A stretch of DNA of 24,971 bases from a virus: positions 1-24,971 of the IMG/VR virus record IMGVR_UViG_3300049491_001217; one strand, written 5' to 3'. Below, in pieces: positions 1 to 11,344 of the stretch (position 1 is its first letter; each line of letters opens with the position of its first letter). Under the pieces are notes generated by a model. That model saw only the letters and a list, made by a program, of their open reading frames with translations. It had not been told where the DNA came from and made no database searches. The position numbers and the translations under genes were made by a program.

Positions 1-306
1 AACAATGCACTATTTAGCAAAAAGAAGAGCATTGATATGGCACATGGAACGCTTGGTTTCCGCACTGGCACGCCTAAGCTGAAACTTATCAAAGGTTTCA
101 CATGGCCATCTGTCACAAATTTACTTAAAAAAATGCTGCCAGATTATGTTAGAACAGTAGATGAGCCAGCCAAAGATAAGCTGCTTGCTGACCGTGAAAA
201 AGTTGAGGTAATGCAACTGATGACTAAGCAAGGCATTGGCTGCGAGGTGGTGCAAGAAGAGAGCTTTTACATTGATCTAAAAAAGGAAGACTTCGCAAGT
301 AACTAA
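1..306 (+). CDS. gam: Mu Gam-like host-nuclease inhibitor, 3' part
   Basis: The frame is open from the first base, so the 5' end lies outside the window; the ATG at 37 is internal, since the residues before it (LFSKKKSIDM) read like the family. The visible stretch, with HGTLGFRTGTPKLK followed by KGFTW, a helical region, and a closing strand pattern (QEESFYIDLKKED), resembles the C-terminal half of the Mu Gam family. Gam binds the ends of double-stranded DNA as a dimer and protects phage DNA from host exonucleases. In Mu it lies in the early operon downstream of the transposition genes, which would put MuA/MuB-type genes to the left of this window. Family assignment is from motif recall and is fairly secure; the N-terminal coiled-coil part cannot be seen. 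Confidence 0.78.
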   Translation, partial: NNALFSKKKSIDMAHGTLGFRTGTPKLKLIKGFTWPSVTNLLKKMLPDYVRTVDEPAKDKLLADREKVEVMQLMTKQGIGCEVVQEESFYIDLKKEDFASN

Positions 307-308
307 AC

Positions 309-716
309 ATGAATAAAACAATGGAAATTTTCAACAAACTAAACCAGCGCCAGCATAAGCTCACCGAGCCTATTGTAAGCATAAGTAAAAGTGGCACCTT
401 TCGATTTAATAAGTCAGCTATACAACATCTATCATTAAACAATGATGACACTGTTACTATTATCAAAAAAGGGGATAGCTTATATATGTCTTTCACTGAA
501 GATGTAAATGGCCTGAAATTAAATGAATATGGCGAAAAAAAGGAATTACAATTCCAACACAAGCTAGCTGCTAATAGTCTTATCAAAGCCATAAACATAA
601 AAGCATATACAGTCTTTAGAACTTTTGAAAAGGATGCCTACCCCATTGAAGGATTTCTAGCTTATAAGCTAATACCCTCACAAATACCCGATAAACTAGC
701 CAAAGTCAAGGCTTAG
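309..716 (+). CDS. hypothetical protein, possible AbrB-like N-terminal domain
   Basis: A 135-residue protein that begins 3 bp after the gam stop and so is probably co-transcribed with it. I do not recognise a family with confidence. Residues 22-60 alternate short strands with a central helix-like segment (SISKSGTFRFNKSAIQHL, then a DDTVTII strand). This loosely recalls the swapped-hairpin AbrB/MazE DNA-binding fold and similar small Bacteroidetes phage proteins. The C-terminal part is mixed, with no signal peptide or membrane segment. The position between gam and the variable-protein genes suggests an early, non-structural role, possibly regulatory; that is inference only. Confidence 0.6.
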   Translation: MNKTMEIFNKLNQRQHKLTEPIVSISKSGTFRFNKSAIQHLSLNNDDTVTIIKKGDSLYMSFTEDVNGLKLNEYGEKKELQFQHKLAANSLIKAINIKAYTVFRTFEKDAYPIEGFLAYKLIPSQIPDKLAKVKA

Positions 717-796: not shown

Positions 797-1288
797 ATGA
801 GTACAACTCAACTAAAAACCCCAGACAACGCGGACATTATTGCCGCCTATCAAACCTCCAATGATGAGGTTAAACAAGTGCTTGAAACCCTTTATGGATC
901 AGAAGGATTCAAACCTTTAAAAATCACCGACCGAGTGAAAACATTCGAGGATGCTTGCTCTATTCAGCCTCTTTCCCAAAACCTGGATATTTTGCTTAGC
1001 TACAATGGCACCGATGCGACATTTTTAGCCGCTCAGGGATTTGCTCAAATGGCTCATATAGCCAAAGTTCTCAATGAAGGCTGGGAGCCTAGCTGGAACA
1101 ACAGTAATGAAAATAAATACTATCCCTGGTTTAAAATGAATTCGGGCTCCGGCCTTTCGTGCAGCGGCTACGATTTCGTTCTCTCGTATACGTCTGTCGG
1201 CTCCCGCCTTGTTTTTAAATCTGCTGAGCTGGCAACCTATGCAGGCAATCAATTCTTAGACATTTACTCAAAATTCTTAACTATCTAA
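797..1288 (+). CDS. variable small protein 1 (DGR-type target candidate)
   Basis: A 163-residue cytosolic protein of a family I associate with Bacteroidetes mobile elements. It has a helical N-terminus with an FEDAC motif, then NEGWEPSWNN and YYPWF (about residues 94-113). A conserved SGSGLS block (116-121) is followed by a 12-residue variable segment (122-133), a conserved VGSRL block (134-138), and a FKSAELATYAGNQF tail. The paralogue at 1300-1680 shares the flanks but differs at 10 of the 12 variable residues. DNA identity is perfect in the 19 bp before and 16 bp after the variable 35 bp, while codons outside differ at third positions. That is what template-directed retrohoming would leave. 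The N-terminal part is about 38 residues longer than in the paralogue. Biochemical function is unknown. An 80-bp gap separates it from the upstream gene, and it may start its own unit. Confidence 0.8.
   Translation: MSTTQLKTPDNADIIAAYQTSNDEVKQVLETLYGSEGFKPLKITDRVKTFEDACSIQPLSQNLDILLSYNGTDATFLAAQGFAQMAHIAKVLNEGWEPSWNNSNENKYYPWFKMNSGSGLSCSGYDFVLSYTSVGSRLVFKSAELATYAGNQFLDIYSKFLTI
1142..1211 (+). repeat. variable repeat VR1 (DGR-like cassette)
   Basis: Left block tcgggctccggcctttcgt (1142-1160), variable core 1161-1195, right block gtcggctcccgccttg (1196-1211). Both flanking blocks are base-for-base identical to VR2. Compared with VR2, 14 of the 35 core bases differ, all at codon positions 1 or 2 and none at a third position. 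Immediately to the right, five of the six codons for the shared Lys-Ser-Ala-Glu-Leu-Ala differ synonymously, so the identical blocks look recently homogenised rather than inherited. Confidence 0.8.
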
Positions 1289-1299
1289 ACTAAAATTCA

Positions 1300-1680
1300 A
1301 TGAACAAAATAAAATCATTCGAGGAAGCCTGCAAGGCCCTCAACATTTCTACGGTTCTGCCCGACTTTTCAATGATTCCGGTAGGCGGCCATTGTGAAGC
1401 TATGTCAGCCCACTATCAACTGGTGATCATCACAGAAGCCCTAAATGAAGGCTGGAAACCAGATTGGAACAACCATAATGAATGGAAGTATTACCCTTGG
1501 TTTGACGTGGAGGCATCAGATGAGTGTCCATCGGGCTCCGGCCTTTCGTACCACGTCCACGTTTGCGATTCCTCGACTACGATTGTCGGCTCCCGCCTTG
1601 CTTTTAAGTCAGCAGAACTGGCGAAATACGCAGGCGAAACGTTCAAACCCCTTTATGAGCAATACTTTTTGATTAAGTAA
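1300..1680 (+). CDS. variable small protein 2 (DGR-type target candidate)
   Basis: A 126-residue paralogue of the preceding protein, starting 11 bp after its stop. It carries the same order of motifs: FEEAC near the N-terminus, NEGWKPDWNN and YYPWF (about residues 50-69), SGSGLS (78-83), a variable block (84-95), VGSRL (96-100), and FKSAELAKYAGETF. The variable block holds Tyr, His, Val, His, Val, Cys, Asp, Ser, Ser, Thr, Thr, Ile, against Cys, Ser, Gly, Tyr, Asp, Phe, Val, Leu, Ser, Tyr, Thr, Ser in the first protein. There is no signal peptide or membrane segment. Its function is unknown. The tandem arrangement with different variable segments suggests two binders or sensors with different specificity, but nothing in the sequence shows the ligand. 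Confidence 0.8.
   Translation: MNKIKSFEEACKALNISTVLPDFSMIPVGGHCEAMSAHYQLVIITEALNEGWKPDWNNHNEWKYYPWFDVEASDECPSGSGLSYHVHVCDSSTTIVGSRLAFKSAELAKYAGETFKPLYEQYFLIK
1531..1600 (+). repeat. variable repeat VR2 (DGR-like cassette)
   Basis: The same architecture as VR1: left block 1531-1549, core 1550-1584, right block 1585-1600, with identical core length. Every VR1/VR2 difference can be derived from a common template by changing only adenines. The implied template codons in order are TAC, AAC, GAC, AAC, GAT, TAC, GAT, AAC, TCG, AAT, ACG, AAT. AAY-type codons are typical of DGR templates because adenine mutagenesis at their first two positions samples many residues without creating stops. Confidence 0.8.
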
Positions 1681-1721
1681 ATGATTGGGTTGTGCTCAAG
1701 TATGCTGACTGGTGTTGCAGG

Positions 1722-1760
1722 TCAGGCTCCGGCCTTTCGTACAACGACTACGATTACGTA
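1722..1760 (+). repeat. truncated template-like copy of the VR cassette
   Basis: The left block recurs at 1722-1740 with one mismatch (a for g at 1724), followed by 1741-1759, which aligns with the first 19 core bases of VR1 and VR2. It carries A at 6 of the 8 positions where VR1 and VR2 differ and matches all 11 positions where they agree, as expected for a DGR template repeat. The two exceptions are T. Homology stops near 1760 and the right-hand block is missing, so this is either a decayed template or a broken third target. A short frame (about 1683-1790) runs through it, encoding SGSGLS followed by an Asn/Asp/Tyr-rich stretch, and ends just before the next gene's ATG. Confidence 0.65.
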
Positions 1761-1791
1761 AAAGAAAACGAAAGACTTGAATTCACCTGAT

Positions 1792-2253
1792 ATGAGCAGC
1801 ATTACACCTAATCAACTCAGCCAGTTTCATGCGGTATTAAATCGCCTGGGGCTTATGCCGTGGAAGGTTGACTATGTTATTGATGCAACCGCAGGCCGTG
1901 AAACCAGCAGCAAAGAACTAAGTATAGATGAAGCTCGCATTCTTATATCCAGGTTAAACCGGGAAGGTGATTTTCTGAGTTGCAAGCCTGATGAAGTGCA
2001 ACCTATCACCATGCCTTCAGTACCAGCGGCTCACCCGTTTGACAAGATGCGTAAAAAAGTAATTGCATGTTTCCGTGAACTTGGATACAACAAGGATGAG
2101 AAAGCCGATATGACACGAATACAGGCCACTTTAATCAAGCACTGGGGTAAGAGGTTGAATGATTATCATAAAGCCGACCTGGTTAAAATTATTGCCGTTC
2201 TGGATAAGGAATGGATACCACATTACCTGCTGAAGAAAGGAGACAGCCAATGA
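1792..2253 (+). CDS. gemA: GemA-like (Mu gp16) regulatory protein
   Basis: 153 residues from the ATG at 1792; a TTG at 1777 would add five residues but lies inside the truncated cassette copy. The C-terminal half fits the Mu gp16/GemA (DUF1018) family: DKMRKKVIACFRELGY, then an acidic loop, MTRIQATLIKHWGKRLNDY, and a final amphipathic helix. In Mu, GemA affects host DNA supercoiling and gene expression and sits in the semi-essential early region, consistent with its position after gam. The N-terminal half (residues 1-80) is less typical and may carry a separate small domain. The stop overlaps the next start (ATGA), so the two are translationally coupled. Confidence 0.68.
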   Translation: MSSITPNQLSQFHAVLNRLGLMPWKVDYVIDATAGRETSSKELSIDEARILISRLNREGDFLSCKPDEVQPITMPSVPAAHPFDKMRKKVIACFRELGYNKDEKADMTRIQATLIKHWGKRLNDYHKADLVKIIAVLDKEWIPHYLLKKGDSQ

Positions 2254-3654: not shown

Positions 3655-4008
3655 ATGGAAACTTTATATATAGGAGAAGACAAAACCATCTACTTCGACC
3701 TTCTTGACAAAGATGGTGAACCCTTAAACTTCGCTGACCTGATTGATATGGTCGTCATATTGTCCATCAACAATATTGAAGTAGCCAAATACAGCAAGGT
3801 TGAGGCTGAAGGGTTTGAACCTGTTACAGCAGGGGAAACCGTAACTGAAGCTAAGATTATTCTTACATCTGACAAAACCAGTGATTTCAATACAGGGCTC
3901 CTGCAAATGCAGATTGACTTGGTTATTGAAGATTCAGACTATGTAAATGGTCGCAAAGACCGTGAAGTTGCGGACTTATTCCGCGTCAGGAAAGGAGTTG
4001 CATCATGA
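3655..4008 (+). CDS. fibre/baseplate-associated protein, BppU-N-like
   Basis: 117 residues, predicted all-beta. It opens with YIGEDKTIYFDLLDKDGEPLNF and contains alternating strands with a TSDFNTGLLQMQIDLVIED segment near the C-terminus. This layout (an opening strand with Asp-Gly-x-Pro and Ig-like spacing) recalls the N-terminal domain of phage baseplate upper proteins that anchor fibres. It overlaps the following collagen-like gene by 4 bp (ATGA at 4005-4008), which supports a fibre-anchoring role. It starts after a 10-bp A/T-rich gap. The assignment is from fold-like pattern and neighbourhood, not from a conserved catalytic motif. Confidence 0.55.
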   Translation: METLYIGEDKTIYFDLLDKDGEPLNFADLIDMVVILSINNIEVAKYSKVEAEGFEPVTAGETVTEAKIILTSDKTSDFNTGLLQMQIDLVIEDSDYVNGRKDREVADLFRVRKGVAS

Positions 4009-4898
4009 GTGTAATTGTTAGAGTAAAGCCCCGCAGCTCATTTAAAACAAGGGTTCAGGACAATGTCAAAGTTGTAACTGAATTGGCTGTTGGCCCTAAA
4101 GGTGATGAAGGAGCAGATGGTAAAACGCTCAGAAATGGCTCAGGAATTCCTTCAAATGGCCTTGGAGCAGATGGTGATTTTTATATTGACACCACTAATT
4201 GGGTAGCTTATGGCCCCAAAGCATCAGGAGCATGGCCTACTGGTCACTCAATGACAGGGCCACAAGGAGCCACAGGAAATACAGGAGCAACTGGAGCCAC
4301 AGGAAACGCTGGAGCAGATGGTAAAACGCTCAGAAATGGCTCAGGAATTCCTTCAAATGGCCTTGGAGCAAATGGTGATTTCTACATTGACACCACCTCA
4401 AGGTACATTTATGGCCCCAAAGCATCAGGAGCATGGCCTACTGGCGTTTCACTTGGCAATATTGTTTTAGGTCAAAACTCAGCTCCCCTTACTGTTGGTA
4501 ATACAACCGCTCTGACTTTACTGGCAAGTATTATTGTTCCGCCAGGATTGTTAGCAGTTGGAGACAGCATACAAGTTGAGTATATTTGGAATTGCAACAA
4601 TAATGCTAATGCGAAAGCTCCCAATCTGTATGTGAATGGTACGGTTGGTCCAGTCCAAAATGATAGTTTAGCTAATAACCAATATTTACAAAAAATAGTC
4701 ATTTTCAAGGTGGTATCCTCCACACTTCTGAAGTGTATTGCTTTGGCTAACAGCAGTTATTCAGCTACCGGGTTGAATGCGAGTACTGCTACTGTTAATA
4801 TATCCAATACAATCACCATAGATTTTAAAGGACAAAAAGCGGTTGCTGGAGATACCTTGATACTTGAACATTATTGCATCAGAGTAATTAAATCTTAA
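4005..4898 (+). CDS. collagen-like tail fibre protein
   Basis: 297 residues. Domain order: a basic N-terminus (1-24), a short Gly-x-x stretch (GPKGDEGADG), a module reading DGKTLRNGSGIPSNGLG to GPKASGAWPTG, a collagen-like run (GPQGATGNTGATGATGNAG), a second copy of the module, and a C-terminal beta-rich domain (about residues 150-297) ending in a CIRVIKS-type strand. Gly-x-y repeats with interspersed GDFYIDT and YGPK motifs are common in trimeric phage fibres of Bacteroidetes, where the C-terminal domain makes host contact. The two modules are nearly identical in DNA (see the repeat entries). It overlaps the preceding gene by 4 bp. Confidence 0.75.
   Translation: MSVIVRVKPRSSFKTRVQDNVKVVTELAVGPKGDEGADGKTLRNGSGIPSNGLGADGDFYIDTTNWVAYGPKASGAWPTGHSMTGPQGATGNTGATGATGNAGADGKTLRNGSGIPSNGLGANGDFYIDTTSRYIYGPKASGAWPTGVSLGNIVLGQNSAPLTVGNTTALTLLASIIVPPGLLAVGDSIQVEYIWNCNNNANAKAPNLYVNGTVGPVQNDSLANNQYLQKIVIFKVVSSTLLKCIALANSSYSATGLNASTATVNISNTITIDFKGQKAVAGDTLILEHYCIRVIKS
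4110..4243 (+). repeat. fibre module repeat, copy 1
   Basis: A 134-bp segment repeated at 4311-4444 with the same length. The two copies are almost identical except for a 13-bp patch after the shared attgacaccac (copy 1 encodes TNWVAY, copy 2 TSRYIY) and a few single changes. It encodes the DGKTLRNG to GAWPTG module of the collagen-like fibre. Confidence 0.85.
4311..4444 (+). repeat. fibre module repeat, copy 2
   Basis: Second copy of the fibre module, separated from the first by a 67-bp segment encoding the Gly-x-y collagen-like run. The high DNA identity implies recent duplication or gene conversion. It could allow module gain or loss by recombination. Confidence 0.85.
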
Positions 4899-6644: not shown

Positions 6645-7848
6645 ATTCTATTTTAAAGCCTTTATTGAGTATTTGCTTCCTGGTAAATACAAGCAGTTTC
6701 CCTTGATAATACAGCATAAGAGATTGAACATTTTCAGACCTGGCCACACGGTTTTGAATAGCTGAAGCCAGAGCTCCGGGCTTAATGCTACTCTTTACGT
6801 GTAGCAGGATGTTATTCGCCTGGCTCTTAGCCTTTCTCAACTCACTGTCAATGGCACCTTTTGAAGCCTTGTGGTTGTGCTTGATTTCAAACTGCTTGAT
6901 GCCTATCATGGCATCAGGATTCTTTGCTCCTGGCTTTGAACTGACTGCTAACAGCTTCACTTTATATCCCTGGTTAGCTAGAATGATCCCGGTCTCAATA
7001 TTTTCAACCCGCTCCTGTTTGGAATGAGCTGGATGCACATCAACATAACCTCCCTTCTTACCTTCATGCACCCGCTGAAATTCCTGCCTGTTTGGGATGA
7101 TCTTCTCAACGGCTTTTAGTATGGATTGACGGGTTTGCTTGTTGACATTGTAATAGGGATGGCTCTCAGGAAACACCACGCCCTGCTTTGCTGTATTATT
7201 GCGAAACATGGGAGGCAGCTCAGGCAGTAAAGACTTGTCTATCTTTGTCTCTTCGCCTTCAGTAAGCTGTCTTACCGAGCATCTGCAACCCCAGCCATTG
7301 GGAGGATAGTAGTTATTCCAGAACGGATCATCTACTTTCTTAATAATCTTATCAAGAGCAGCGTGACTTGCTCTTACCCGGCTGTCTCCTACTGTCTGAT
7401 ATTGCAGGAAAGGCAATGCTCCTTTTTCAACTTGGAATTGAACCCATCGGCTGGCCATCGCTGAGCTGTTAACCGCAAAGTCATATTCAGCAGCCAGGTA
7501 GTTGACATTGTAATTTTCATCAATGTCTTTTACATCCTTCTTAAAGTCTGCAAACGGCCTAACATTGCCTTGTTCATCATATAATAAGCTGGTAATGTCG
7601 CGAAGCTGATGATAGTTTTGAAAGCCATAAAACACATAGACATTCCGCTCAAGATGTTGCAGCATTTCAAAGTCATGGGTTTGCAGCCCTGGTGAATCAA
7701 AGTCGAGGTTATAGCCTTTTTTTACTGCTTTCCATACTTCCTGAGCTAGTTCCTGAATAAATTCAGGATCAACGTCACCTGATCTGATTTTACCCTTATA
7801 GATATCATCCACAACCCGGTCAAAGATGTCATCCAGTGTCTTACTCAT
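6643..7848 (-). CDS. MuF-like minor head protein with C-terminal nuclease-like domain
   Basis: 401 residues. Residues about 115-200 form the MuF (SPP1 gp7) minor head domain, with RASHAALD (159-166), DPFWNNYYPPNGWGCRC (174-190) and a following SVRQL. These proteins sit near the portal inside the capsid. Residues about 280-401 are a separate domain: an alpha/beta segment with D312 and the pair E321-x-K323 (PDAMI then FEIK), a Lys-rich helix (SELRKAKSQANNIL), and a closing MLYYQGKLLVFTR strand. This arrangement resembles the CdiA-CT-type or PD-(D/E)xK-like nuclease and toxin tails often attached to MuF proteins. The gene starts inside the portal gene (8-bp overlap). The MuF call is strong; the tail's activity is inferred. 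Confidence 0.8.
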   Translation of the reverse strand: MSKTLDDIFDRVVDDIYKGKIRSGDVDPEFIQELAQEVWKAVKKGYNLDFDSPGLQTHDFEMLQHLERNVYVFYGFQNYHQLRDITSLLYDEQGNVRPFADFKKDVKDIDENYNVNYLAAEYDFAVNSSAMASRWVQFQVEKGALPFLQYQTVGDSRVRASHAALDKIIKKVDDPFWNNYYPPNGWGCRCSVRQLTEGEETKIDKSLLPELPPMFRNNTAKQGVVFPESHPYYNVNKQTRQSILKAVEKIIPNRQEFQRVHEGKKGGYVDVHPAHSKQERVENIETGIILANQGYKVKLLAVSSKPGAKNPDAMIGIKQFEIKHNHKASKGAIDSELRKAKSQANNILLHVKSSIKPGALASAIQNRVARSENVQSLMLYYQGKLLVFTRKQILNKGFKIE

Positions 7849-9169
7849 GCTCGCAGTCGTGTTCCTGGTATAGTTCGTTGATGGATTGATGCAGCTTTAC
7901 AATAGGATTCATGCCTTTGAGCTTCTTTTTCTTTCCGGGATCAGGATTATCTCCAGGCTTGGTTTTAGGAGGTGTTACCTCTTTTACCTTCACCGGGATA
8001 CCAAAATTGTCAATGATATACTGAGGTTCAACATCGAAGTATTCAAGAGCTTCATGCACCCGCTTCCACAAAGCATCCAGGTCTTTGCGTTCGGGGAATT
8101 CAAACTTAAAGTTCTCAAAACCCATTCCCTGGGCATTCATTACCCTGAACAGACTGGTATTCACCAGCGCTTCAAACCCAGTCTTGAAAGCATTGATCAC
8201 ATTCTCCAAAATCCGTTCATGTACTTCACCCTGGCTTTTGCTACTTCCATTATCGGTGGTCATGGTCTGGCCAAGTAGCAGCTTACTGATTTGCATATCA
8301 ATGCGGTCTATGAACTTGTCATAAACATTGTACGCATCTCCCTTGGTAGATTCAATATATTTGATCTCTTCGCCTTCCTGGAACACAGCATAAGCTGATT
8401 TGCCCATATCTTTCAGGTGTCCCTCCATCCTGTCCATGTCCTTCTTATCTCTTCCGACAACCTTACCAACCCTGACAGGCATTCCGAATATGTCGGTGTA
8501 TTCCGACCAGGCTATAAACGCATTGCGTTTGAAGAGTATGTTCGGAGCTGCTTTGTTTAACAAGCCCAACCCTTTCTTAGTGCCTATTTCAATAAGCCAG
8601 TCCATCATTGGAGTATCCCGGTATGCAATTCCTGTATTATCGATTTGATTAACTAGGATCAAACCAAACTCAGGCGAAACGTGTCTGCGTGGCACCAGTT
8701 CGCAACCAGAGAATTCCCCCTCTACAATATTTCCCATCTGAACTAGGCTATGGCCCCAAAGAGCTGTGTCAACGTAAATGTCAATCAGGTCATTGAACCA
8801 TTGCTTTCTGAACATCTCTGTCTTTTCCAGGTCTTCCGTTCCATCAGTTTTGTTGGAGACTCTTATGACTTCAGCTTTCAATGCTGCTTTGATCTGGTGA
8901 TCTACTATCCCGCTCAAATGATTGTCCAGCACCAGCTCATCATATAGGTTGTATAAAAGCAGCCTGCGCGGATTTACAACGTTTTCAGCCGAAGTCAGTG
9001 CAGTTCTCCAGGTCTTAATATCCTTTTTTGCCCTGGTATTTGACTGCTCAATAATCCGTGTAATGACCTGCTCATTATTTACCCGATCACCTGAACCGGA
9101 TTTTAAGGCCTCTGGTCGCTTATTTATCAAGTTGTCTATCCAAGACATAGGATTCATACTTATCTTCAT
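7841..9169 (-). CDS. portal protein (DUF935, Mu gp29-like)
   Basis: 442 residues. Recognisable DUF935 portal features: an N-terminal YNLYDELVLDNHLSGIVDHQ segment, LWGHSLVQMG, ELVPRRHVSPEFG, and a C-terminal helical region (QISKLLLGQTMTTDNGSSKSQGE) followed by a PxPGxxKKKK linker. The protein forms the dodecameric ring at the capsid vertex through which the terminase pumps DNA. Its length is close to that of the Mu relative, allowing for a shorter C-terminus. It lies between the gp36-like gene (33-bp gap) and the MuF gene (8-bp overlap), the usual portal-then-MuF order. Confidence 0.85.
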   Translation of the reverse strand: MKISMNPMSWIDNLINKRPEALKSGSGDRVNNEQVITRIIEQSNTRAKKDIKTWRTALTSAENVVNPRRLLLYNLYDELVLDNHLSGIVDHQIKAALKAEVIRVSNKTDGTEDLEKTEMFRKQWFNDLIDIYVDTALWGHSLVQMGNIVEGEFSGCELVPRRHVSPEFGLILVNQIDNTGIAYRDTPMMDWLIEIGTKKGLGLLNKAAPNILFKRNAFIAWSEYTDIFGMPVRVGKVVGRDKKDMDRMEGHLKDMGKSAYAVFQEGEEIKYIESTKGDAYNVYDKFIDRIDMQISKLLLGQTMTTDNGSSKSQGEVHERILENVINAFKTGFEALVNTSLFRVMNAQGMGFENFKFEFPERKDLDALWKRVHEALEYFDVEPQYIIDNFGIPVKVKEVTPPKTKPGDNPDPGKKKKLKGMNPIVKLHQSINELYQEHDCEHE

Positions 9170-9202
9170 TTTACGGGCTTTTTAAACGGTATTTAAACAG
9201 TA

Positions 9203-9628
9203 TCAGTATTCACTATTGAATTTCTCATTGCTTCCAAATCGGGAATTTGAAGCACTTTCCTCAGTATCCGGATCAATCAAAGCTGGAAGAGCCGGAGTGA
9301 GTTTTCCGGTTGCCACATCCCTGAGCCAGGCAATGGCTTTATCATATCGGTCAATCCTTATTTGAGGGATATTTCTGGGAGTGGCACGGCTGAATACGTG
9401 GTACACCACCATGTCAATCAGGTACATCTTTATAAGTGGATCACGATCACCTTCTTCCTGGGAGAAAATCTCATCCACATCAAACCGCTGGTTGATATAG
9501 GACTCCATTTCCTTCTGAGCCATGATTTCGGCTTCCTGAAGCACCAGGTTATCATTTTCTATAACCTGAAATATAGCCTGTTCCCTTATTTGGGTTTTGT
9601 AATCATCTTGTTTGAGAAATGCCATCAA
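9203..9628 (-). CDS. Mu gp36-like (DUF1320-like) head-tail connector protein
   Basis: 141 residues. The helical N-terminal and central parts (REQAIFQVIENDNLVLQEAE, ESYINQRFDVDEIF, MYLIDMVVYHVFSR, RYDKAIAWLRDVATGKLTP) are typical of the DUF1320/gp36 family and of gp6-like connectors that sit under the portal. In Mu the equivalent lies after the major head gene; here it lies between the large terminase and the portal. Two adjacent Met codons (9626-9628 and 9623-9625) are possible starts. The first overlaps the stop of the dam remnant. Confidence 0.65.
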   Translation of the reverse strand: MMAFLKQDDYKTQIREQAIFQVIENDNLVLQEAEIMAQKEMESYINQRFDVDEIFSQEEGDRDPLIKMYLIDMVVYHVFSRATPRNIPQIRIDRYDKAIAWLRDVATGKLTPALPALIDPDTEESASNSRFGSNEKFNSEY

Positions 9629-9777
9629 AATTTATAGTTAGCTGTTAGAACTTCGATTTTGAGCTTCTTTGCTCCAAAGAAGGGCTCAACATATATTTTA
9701 TGTTCGGGAATTGCTGGCAGAATGTGTTTCAACATGGTTTGTTTACCGCCGTACCATGTAATAGGTGTTCTTTTCAT
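9625..9777 (-). pseudogene. truncated DNA adenine methylase (Dam/D12-class) remnant
   Basis: A 50-residue frame from the ATG at 9777. PITWYGGKQTMLKHILPAIP then YVEPFFGA is the N-terminal SAM-binding start of D12-class N6-adenine methyltransferases, which normally continue EPFFGGG and run to about 250 residues or more with a DPPY motif. Here the sequence passes from FFGA straight to KKLKIEVL, as if the Gly-rich loop and next few residues were deleted, and it stops 14 residues after that gap. No DPPY motif follows in any nearby frame. It is squeezed between the terminase and gp36-like genes in the same orientation. It could be a dead relic, or a small product kept for coupling translation. Confidence 0.7.
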
Positions 9778-9790
9778 GTATATATAGAGG

Positions 9791-11344
9791 TTAATAATCG
9801 TTTTCTCGTTGACGTTTACCCGTGCGGGTTTCATTGCTTCTGCTTTTACTGCGGCCTCTTCTTTGGAGCAGCCAAATTGCCCCCTCATCAGCATCGGGGC
9901 CGTCATCAGGTGCAGAGTTGCCTTGCTCGGTTGCTAATAGCTGATCAATGCCAGCGACCATATCAGGATCATCTTTCTCTTCCTGATTATATATAATAAA
10001 TCCACGTTCATACAGAGGGCTGGTTGCCTCTATTCGGCCAAACTTATCAGGCTTTGATCTGTGATCCGGCCTGATAGGTAGCTGATAGTTGCGGGACTCA
10101 CCTTCCTCATAGAACTCATCCAATAACAAGTCCTGAAGCATATTGGCTTCTATATAATAATCTACCTGTATATCTTCAGGTAATGACTCATGAAGGTCAT
10201 AAAACCATTTGACCATTGTGGACACGGAACATTGGCGGCAAAATGCTCTGATTAAATGCAGCTCACTGCCTTTTTTGCCCCAAAACTTGATTGCTTTAAA
10301 GTCGCTAGTTGCGGTGTTCTTGAATGATGGATCACAATAGACAACCAGATCATCATATTCACGAAGCTTCCTTATAGCTCTCCACTTGATCCACTCAGGT
10401 TTGAATATAGTTCCTTCCAGCAGCGGATTGTTCATATACTCTTTTTCCCACGCCCGCATGCTGGTCTCAGACCTTTTTTGCTTCCAGTATTGTATAGTGT
10501 ATTTTTCCGGCCATGTGGGGAAGCCCTTTTTGTCAAGTGCATTTACAGTCAGTAAATGCCAGTTGCCTTTAGTTGTATATATACAACCGCTCTTTACACT
10601 TCTGTCACCGCCCTTGAGCTTCTCATCTGACACAGTGGCCATGATACTTGTTTTAGATATCAGGTTATTGACCAGGATAAACCTTTCTGAGCCTATATCA
10701 AAACAGCCCATCAAGTCCTCCATGATCCAGTCAGCAGCTTCACGCACGAGCTTTGGATTCTTACTCAGCTTCTTTGAATCAGCATCATCCACAACTATAT
10801 AGTCAGGTCTGTTGGCTTCATTGCGTGTGCCTCGTGGATTTTGTCCTAAACCGATGGCATAAAAAGCACAATTGTCTTTTGTAATGAATTCACCTTCACT
10901 CCAGGAGCCAAAGCTGAACTGCTCCCCAAAGTCGTTGATGAACCTCCGGTTATTGGTTAACTGAGCTTGTATATCTGCCAGCAATCTGAATGCTTTCTTT
11001 TCGGTTTGCCCAACCAGGAGCATGGTCTTTAATTCTTCATTTATTTTGAGCCAAAGCGGCCAGCCTAATGTAGCATGGGTAGATTTTGCTGAACCCCGAA
11101 ACCAGCGGGCAATACCTTTAAACAGTTTATTTTTAAGAAGTGCGTTTGCAAATAATATATGAAACCATGCACAAGGAGCTTTGGCGTACATTGGAAAATA
11201 GTATTTAAAAAAGAACTTGTAATCCTTTTTTGCCCGCTCAATCCTTTTTTGCTTGGCATCTATAGTTTCTCCTACTTCAACAGGCGTGGCCTGCTGAATC
11301 ATCTTACAATGCTCTTCAAAATCTTTCCAAGTCACCTGTTTCAT
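9791..11344 (-). CDS. terminase large subunit (Mu gp28-like)
   Basis: 517 residues. N-terminal ATPase: a deviant Walker A RGSAKST (83-89), a common variant in Mu-like terminases, and Walker B YIVVDDAD (182-189). A VLVGQTEK-type strand follows Walker A. The C-terminal RNase H-like nuclease shows an acidic triad: D338 in VVYCDPSF, E399 in YYIEAN, and D484 in DDGPDADEGAIW. The enzyme translocates and cuts DNA during headful packaging. The start overlaps the small-subunit stop by 4 bp. The basic C-terminal tail (RRGRSKSRSNETRTGKR) probably binds portal or DNA. Length is normal for the family. Confidence 0.88.
   Translation of the reverse strand: MKQVTWKDFEEHCKMIQQATPVEVGETIDAKQKRIERAKKDYKFFFKYYFPMYAKAPCAWFHILFANALLKNKLFKGIARWFRGSAKSTHATLGWPLWLKINEELKTMLLVGQTEKKAFRLLADIQAQLTNNRRFINDFGEQFSFGSWSEGEFITKDNCAFYAIGLGQNPRGTRNEANRPDYIVVDDADSKKLSKNPKLVREAADWIMEDLMGCFDIGSERFILVNNLISKTSIMATVSDEKLKGGDRSVKSGCIYTTKGNWHLLTVNALDKKGFPTWPEKYTIQYWKQKRSETSMRAWEKEYMNNPLLEGTIFKPEWIKWRAIRKLREYDDLVVYCDPSFKNTATSDFKAIKFWGKKGSELHLIRAFCRQCSVSTMVKWFYDLHESLPEDIQVDYYIEANMLQDLLLDEFYEEGESRNYQLPIRPDHRSKPDKFGRIEATSPLYERGFIIYNQEEKDDPDMVAGIDQLLATEQGNSAPDDGPDADEGAIWLLQRRGRSKSRSNETRTGKRQRENDY

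Follow-up and report, generated by a model that had tools for sequence, protein, structure and literature searches.

To our knowledge, phage DGRs are almost always interpreted as tail-fibre tropism switches. The BPP-1 DGR (Mtd/brt/avd) targets a tropism protein of the tail that adopts a C-type lectin fold, and an Avd protein is present. C-type lectin folds surround the variable repeats (VRs) in published surveys (PMC8144416). Hankyphage, a Mu-type Bacteroides phage carrying a DGR, has a tail fibre longer than 2200 residues whose C-terminus is the DGR target, together with an Avd protein (PMC6199706, PMC12135933). Non-structural DGR targets have a precedent (PMC8008677): the second target of Quimbyvirus is a non-structural, hypervariable protein "nested within defense-related genes" (Benler 2021, PMC8008677), located in a defence island on the strand opposite to the structural genes (PMC8008677), and a 2025 study noted second VRs near counter-defence genes (PMC12629997). 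The module described here shares with BPP-1 the logic of VR, template repeat (TR) and reverse transcriptase (RT) and the adenine bias, but neither a C-type lectin fold nor Avd was found in it. It differs from Hankyphage in having two small early proteins, VP1 and VP2, as targets and a different RT-linked gene. VP1 and VP2 resemble the second target of Quimbyvirus and LoVEphage in being non-structural and hypervariable, whereas in those phages a single remote target is added to a structural one and the RT is split in frames. VP1 and VP2 are adjacent targets of a dedicated cassette for which no structural target was found. No earlier description of an early dedicated cassette with paired targets was found.

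The window, the whole stretch of DNA analysed, is a complete virus record of 24,971 bases. Its Mu-type portal (Portal_Mu, E = 4e-68) and its Gam gene (Table 1) identify the virus as a Mu-type transposable phage, and a phage terminase match is present. Transposase A/B genes are absent from the 24,971-base record; they would sit upstream of the record start, as in relatives. A portal-protein search for close relatives of the window phage found none, and an exact-pattern scan of viral contigs for the window's own template flank gave zero matches. Elsewhere in the window, positions 4005-4898 encode a protein in which collagen-like G-x-x repeats occur together with a repeated ADGKTLRNGSGIPSNGLGA unit; its tail fibre match is weak. 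A short minus-strand ORF beside the terminase gene end (9625-9906) was read by eye as a possible truncated DNA adenine methylase start (TWYGGK...EPFFGA).

Table 1. Features of the early region of the window that contain or adjoin the VP1/VP2 locus.
Feature	Position	Strand	Evidence
Mu Gam-like DNA end-protection gene, C-terminal part	1..306	+	phrog_491, E = 3.5e-17; early region
Early gene, 135 aa, function unknown	309..716	+	ORF; no Pfam or PHROG match
VP1, long variable protein, 163 aa	797..1288	+	phrog_11581, E = 2e-27
VR1 (variable repeat 1)	1142..1211	+	core about 1161-1194
VP2, short variable protein, 126 aa	1300..1680	+	phrog_11581, E = 2e-25
VR2 (variable repeat 2)	1531..1600	+	core about 1550-1583
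5' half of template repeat (TR), truncated	1722..1758	+	intergenic; 10/11 VR/TR mismatches at TR adenines
Last codons of ds, VKENERLEFT stop	1758..1790	+	matches ds C-terminal ends
Next early gene after the ds remnant	1792..2253	+	phrog_286 weakly, E = 3e-4; GemA-like by position only

VP1 and VP2 are adjacent plus-strand paralogues belonging to a family of unknown function. Searches of Pfam, NCBIfam and PADLOC returned zero matches for either protein, a sequence search of solved structures gave no credible match, and no family member was found in plasmids. The AF2 models of VP2 (pLDDT 85.7, pTM 0.81) and VP1 (pLDDT 84.7, pTM 0.72) are largely helical, with the VR in a loop of low confidence. 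Foldseek comparison of these models with the PDB gave no match at E<=0.001, and their BFVD matches were only uncharacterised phage proteins.

In VR1 and VR2, identical blocks flank a 34-bp core, 19 bases long on its left side and 17 on its right; the original prediction had the left block right and gave 16 and 35 bp for the other two. Its count of 14 core differences, none at codon position 3, was reproduced, with 5, 9 and 0 differences at codon positions 1, 2 and 3. The flanks differ mainly at third positions, as it had stated: the corresponding figures are 4/4/10 in the homologous stretch upstream of the VRs and 9/8/15 downstream. The probability that 14 differences would miss every third position by chance is about 0.002 if all 70 bp are considered and 0.0004 for the core alone.

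The TR remnant lies in the intergenic slot where relatives have intact TRs and contains 8 adenines among its 37 bases. All five mismatches of VR1 with the remnant face adenines (p = 1e-4), as do five of the six of VR2 (p = 7e-4). No complete template is left in the window, only these 5' 37 bases. The remnant and the intact TR of L109, an Elizabethkingia locus, have TCGTACAACGACTACGATTACG in common. The L109 template reads TCGTACAACGACTACGATTACGATAACTCGAAT..., and the window copy is identical there up to GATTACG, beyond which it continues as GTAAAAGAAAACGAAAGACTTGAATTCACCTGA. This encodes VKENERLEFT followed by a stop, the C-terminal end of ds, a gene of about 100 aa; in L027 the equivalent end is TTTIVKENERFEFT stop, and in L001 it is KNNDRLEFS stop. 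Because the middle of the TR runs directly into the ds end, the window lacks the 3' template, the RT and almost the whole of ds. Comparison with intact relatives points to a deletion from mid-TR to the 3' codons of ds that would have removed the RT, an inference for which the read support of the record was not checked. The end of ds was probably retained because the start region of the next gene lies on it. The check for an RT elsewhere in the element found none anywhere in the 24,971-base record, so the element as found is unable to act alone, and the absence of an RT of the DGR clade makes the window a decayed DGR locus and not a working DGR. The template had thus been correctly called broken, but the extent of the damage was underestimated, since the whole RT and most of ds are also deleted. 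Six of the eight alignable variable sites had been credited with a template A; the six stand, and the true count is six of seven because the eighth falls past the deletion junction. The further proposal of template adenines at all 14 variable sites holds for 13 in the full-length L109 template and fails at one T/C site.

In relatives, the complete module has the order long target, short target, template, DGR-type RT and ds. L001, a relative recovered with VP2 as query, has a VP1 orthologue at 7453-7935 and a target with 62% identity to VP2 at 7946-8326, followed by an intact DGR whose 70-bp template spans about 8361-8430 and whose RT occupies 8536-9495, with ds next. A homologue of the window gene that follows the ds remnant also lies 3' of the L001 module. 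The best solved match of the L001 RT is 8ub7_A (full length, E = 1.6e-45), an entry titled only "Reverse transcriptase" that we take to be the BPP-1 DGR enzyme. A family-alignment search covered the best 80 of 393 viral loci and 61 genome loci, some of which duplicate one another. An RT lies at most 800 bases downstream in 101 of the 110 loci with an adjacent target pair, and ds is also present in 71 of those 101. The GxxxSQ motif, a DGR hallmark (PMC11054128), occurs in 104 of 105 RT copies and takes the form GNYLSQ in relatives. The bases flanking the template vary between phages. Six loci (L012, L057, L067, L086, L107 and L121) have a third tandem target, and a single template matches all three, and L090, L093, L105 and L119, from Dyadobacter and other genomes, have several family members kilobases apart around a single RT. 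The Dyadobacter and Niastella loci L093 and L096 are among those in which the module is intact.

Templates were located automatically for 185 VRs of relatives, and 2439 of the 2660 VR/template mismatches (92%) face template adenines. This figure is somewhat favoured because the template search score tolerates mismatches at A. The located templates are high-scoring and share one fixed location, after the short gene and before the RT. Many VR/template pairs have zero non-A mismatches. Comparison of near-identical contigs served as a check of activity that is independent of the templates. L057 and L068 have 13 VR differences and 0/5824 bases differing elsewhere; the corresponding values are 11 and 1/4534 for L067 and L068, 11/57 and 1/6461 for L017 and L029, and 24 and 1/3908 for L057 and L067. 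Some near-identical pairs have no VR difference. Phages that differ almost solely in their VRs indicate that the device is active in nature, and these natural VR-only differences suggest that the paired genes are still rewritten in the roughly one hundred related viral and prophage loci that keep the enzyme and the template. The adenine test set by the original prediction was passed, and its assignment of the two proteins as DGR targets is upheld by the complete cassettes of relatives together with the VR-only differences.

The module belongs to the early/replication block, and the predicted non-tail location in the early region of a Mu-like phage is supported by relatives with a complete cassette. 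Of the pair loci, 32 have MuA/MuB-like genes upstream on the strand of the module, and the MuB-like gene carries an AAA domain. L020, L038 and L012 are non-Mu phages, and there SbcC-like, RecT, MBL-fold, helicase or cytosine methylase genes adjoin the module. No tail gene matched the TR in ten whole phages checked, in which the TR matches solely VRs of the VP1/VP2 family.

Remote members of the family occur in DGR-bearing phages of other kinds. The crAss-like DGRs (Buchavirus, Blohavirus) have an RT about 60% identical to the L001 RT and a template that also serves a distant VP1/VP2-family member, but a tail target exists, the RT is beside the tail gene and the small target is unpaired. In cr56, cr52, cr53 and cr60, the small family member lies 46-59 kb from the RT that adjoins the tail protein. 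Every small-gene VR/template mismatch is at A in cr56, cr52 and cr53, where the VR of the tail gene derives from the template that also serves the small gene; cr60 is weaker evidence because its small gene best matches the tail VR and not the TR. The crAss-like records with a template for both the tail and the small protein are NC_055890, NC_055888, NC_055889 and NC_055891 (L147, L148, L182-L187). Proteins of LoVEphage match the family with 28-30% identity over more than 90% of their length (E 1e-7 to 5e-9), and the family-member VRs of LoVEphage and BI-TP1 differ from the LoVEphage template at A only. The LoVEphage member sits beside methyltransferases and an RtcB-type ligase, a neighbourhood from which it is inferred to be the published Quimbyvirus-type ORF. 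This distant member is probably the documented hypervariable non-structural target of Quimbyvirus. The RT domain of the LoVEphage and BI-TP1 loci (L150-L153, L157) extends across two ORFs, comparable to the reported frameshifted Quimbyvirus RT.

The RT-linked gene ds (phrog_19665; L001:9485-9784 and equivalents) directly follows the DGR RTs of Bacteroidota phages. It had no match above noise in Pfam, NCBIfam or the PDB. Its only matches in the phage collection are in the archaeal viruses ANMV-1 and vir525, where it again directly follows the RT; there the DGR target is instead adtA or a tail protein, and no VP1/VP2-type protein was found in the stretch searched. A search of 395 Bacteroidota genomes with ds alone gave five matches, each with a DGR-like RT immediately upstream, and three of the five lack VP-type genes in the stretch examined. 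Further loci with ds directly after a DGR RT are L188, L189 and L194-L196. No Avd was recognised in the module, which has ds after the RT instead. The gene ds is a good candidate DGR accessory protein, or another component of DGRs so far unrecognised.

The deletion in the window has counterparts. Almost the same deletion in L082 fuses mid-template to ...KDDRYLFT stop, and the module is intact in L018, a relative of L082 (about 78% identity over the target pair). L055 has a similar deletion that leaves only a ds tail. Five further pairs (L073, L092, L098, L099 and L112) are without a recognised intact RT, and some of them keep templates or RT fragments. The RT thus appears, from these sequence comparisons, to have been lost repeatedly among these phages.

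A mechanism is proposed in which VP1 and VP2 are paired targets of a DGR in the early region of Bacteroidota transposable phages. By extension from known DGRs, the RT of the intact form would misread adenines as it copies the template RNA, and the resulting cDNA would replace the VRs of both genes by mutagenic retrohoming. About a dozen residues ahead of an invariant GSRL block would be randomised. In the window phage, the putative deletion from mid-template to the end of ds would have removed the RT, and VP1 and VP2 are inferred to be frozen in their last rewritten state. The combination of DGR origin, early non-tail targets and RT loss is very probably correct. Plain gene duplication with positive selection or gene conversion, without a retroelement, would account for tandem paralogues, and selection on amino acids likewise favours codon positions 1 and 2. 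Such a history does not accommodate the bias towards template adenines, the intergenic position of the template or the RT linkage in about a hundred relatives, and we give it almost no credence. Gene conversion or selection alone was rejected on the grounds of the extragenic template and the adenine bias. The missing RT could be an assembly artefact in a real phage with an intact DGR, given that the record is an uncultivated-virus contig and variable repeats disturb assembly. The junction is not within a repeat common to both sides, however, and the same kind of junction occurs in the distantly related L082, whose nearer relative L018 is intact, with a third loss in L055; an artefact is improbable. 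A cassette still in use, with a co-resident phage or prophage supplying the RT and a full template in trans to rewrite VR1 and VR2, is equally hard to credit. The window VRs do still match the TR remnant at nearly all non-A sites, and crAss-like templates act across 46-59 kb within one genome, but template flanks differ between phages, homing across phages is not observed and the host genome is not known.

The preferred account of a decayed DGR with early targets leaves the role of the proteins to be inferred. The likeliest role of VP1 and VP2 is intracellular binding of variable molecules from the host or from competitors, such as defence components, with counter-defence the preferred function; this rests on gene location only and is tentative, although it is close to an even proposition. 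A role as minor virion or tail-associated receptor-binding proteins encoded outside the tail cluster, through which the DGR alters host range as in BPP-1 and Hankyphage, would agree with tail proteins being most known phage DGR targets (PMC8144416) and with the crAss-like template that also serves a tail protein. It is unlikely for proteins of 126-163 aa without a tail profile match, encoded in a Gam/transposition or RecT/helicase early block and not in a late operon, whose template is common to no tail gene in the ten whole phages and whose apparent Quimbyvirus homologue is in a defence island opposite in strand to the structural genes (PMC8008677). A wider version of the intracellular reading is more doubtful than its core: Bacteroidota transposable phages would maintain a dedicated DGR whose sole targets are two early intracellular proteins that form an antigen-receptor-like pair for probing rival phages or the defences of the host, ds would replace Avd, and the RT would be repeatedly discarded once a useful variant is fixed.

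These phages represent a large conserved class of DGR with targets in the early block and no tail gene among those checked. The recurrent joint loss of RT and ds supplies natural "frozen" variants for comparison, and ds, common to archaeal viruses, is a candidate for an unrecognised DGR component. The early, non-tail targets make the question of what a phage needs to vary inside the cell directly testable. Since crAss-like and Quimby-type gut phages also have a remote second target from the VP1/VP2 family, the function of this family is probably common to abundant gut viruses.
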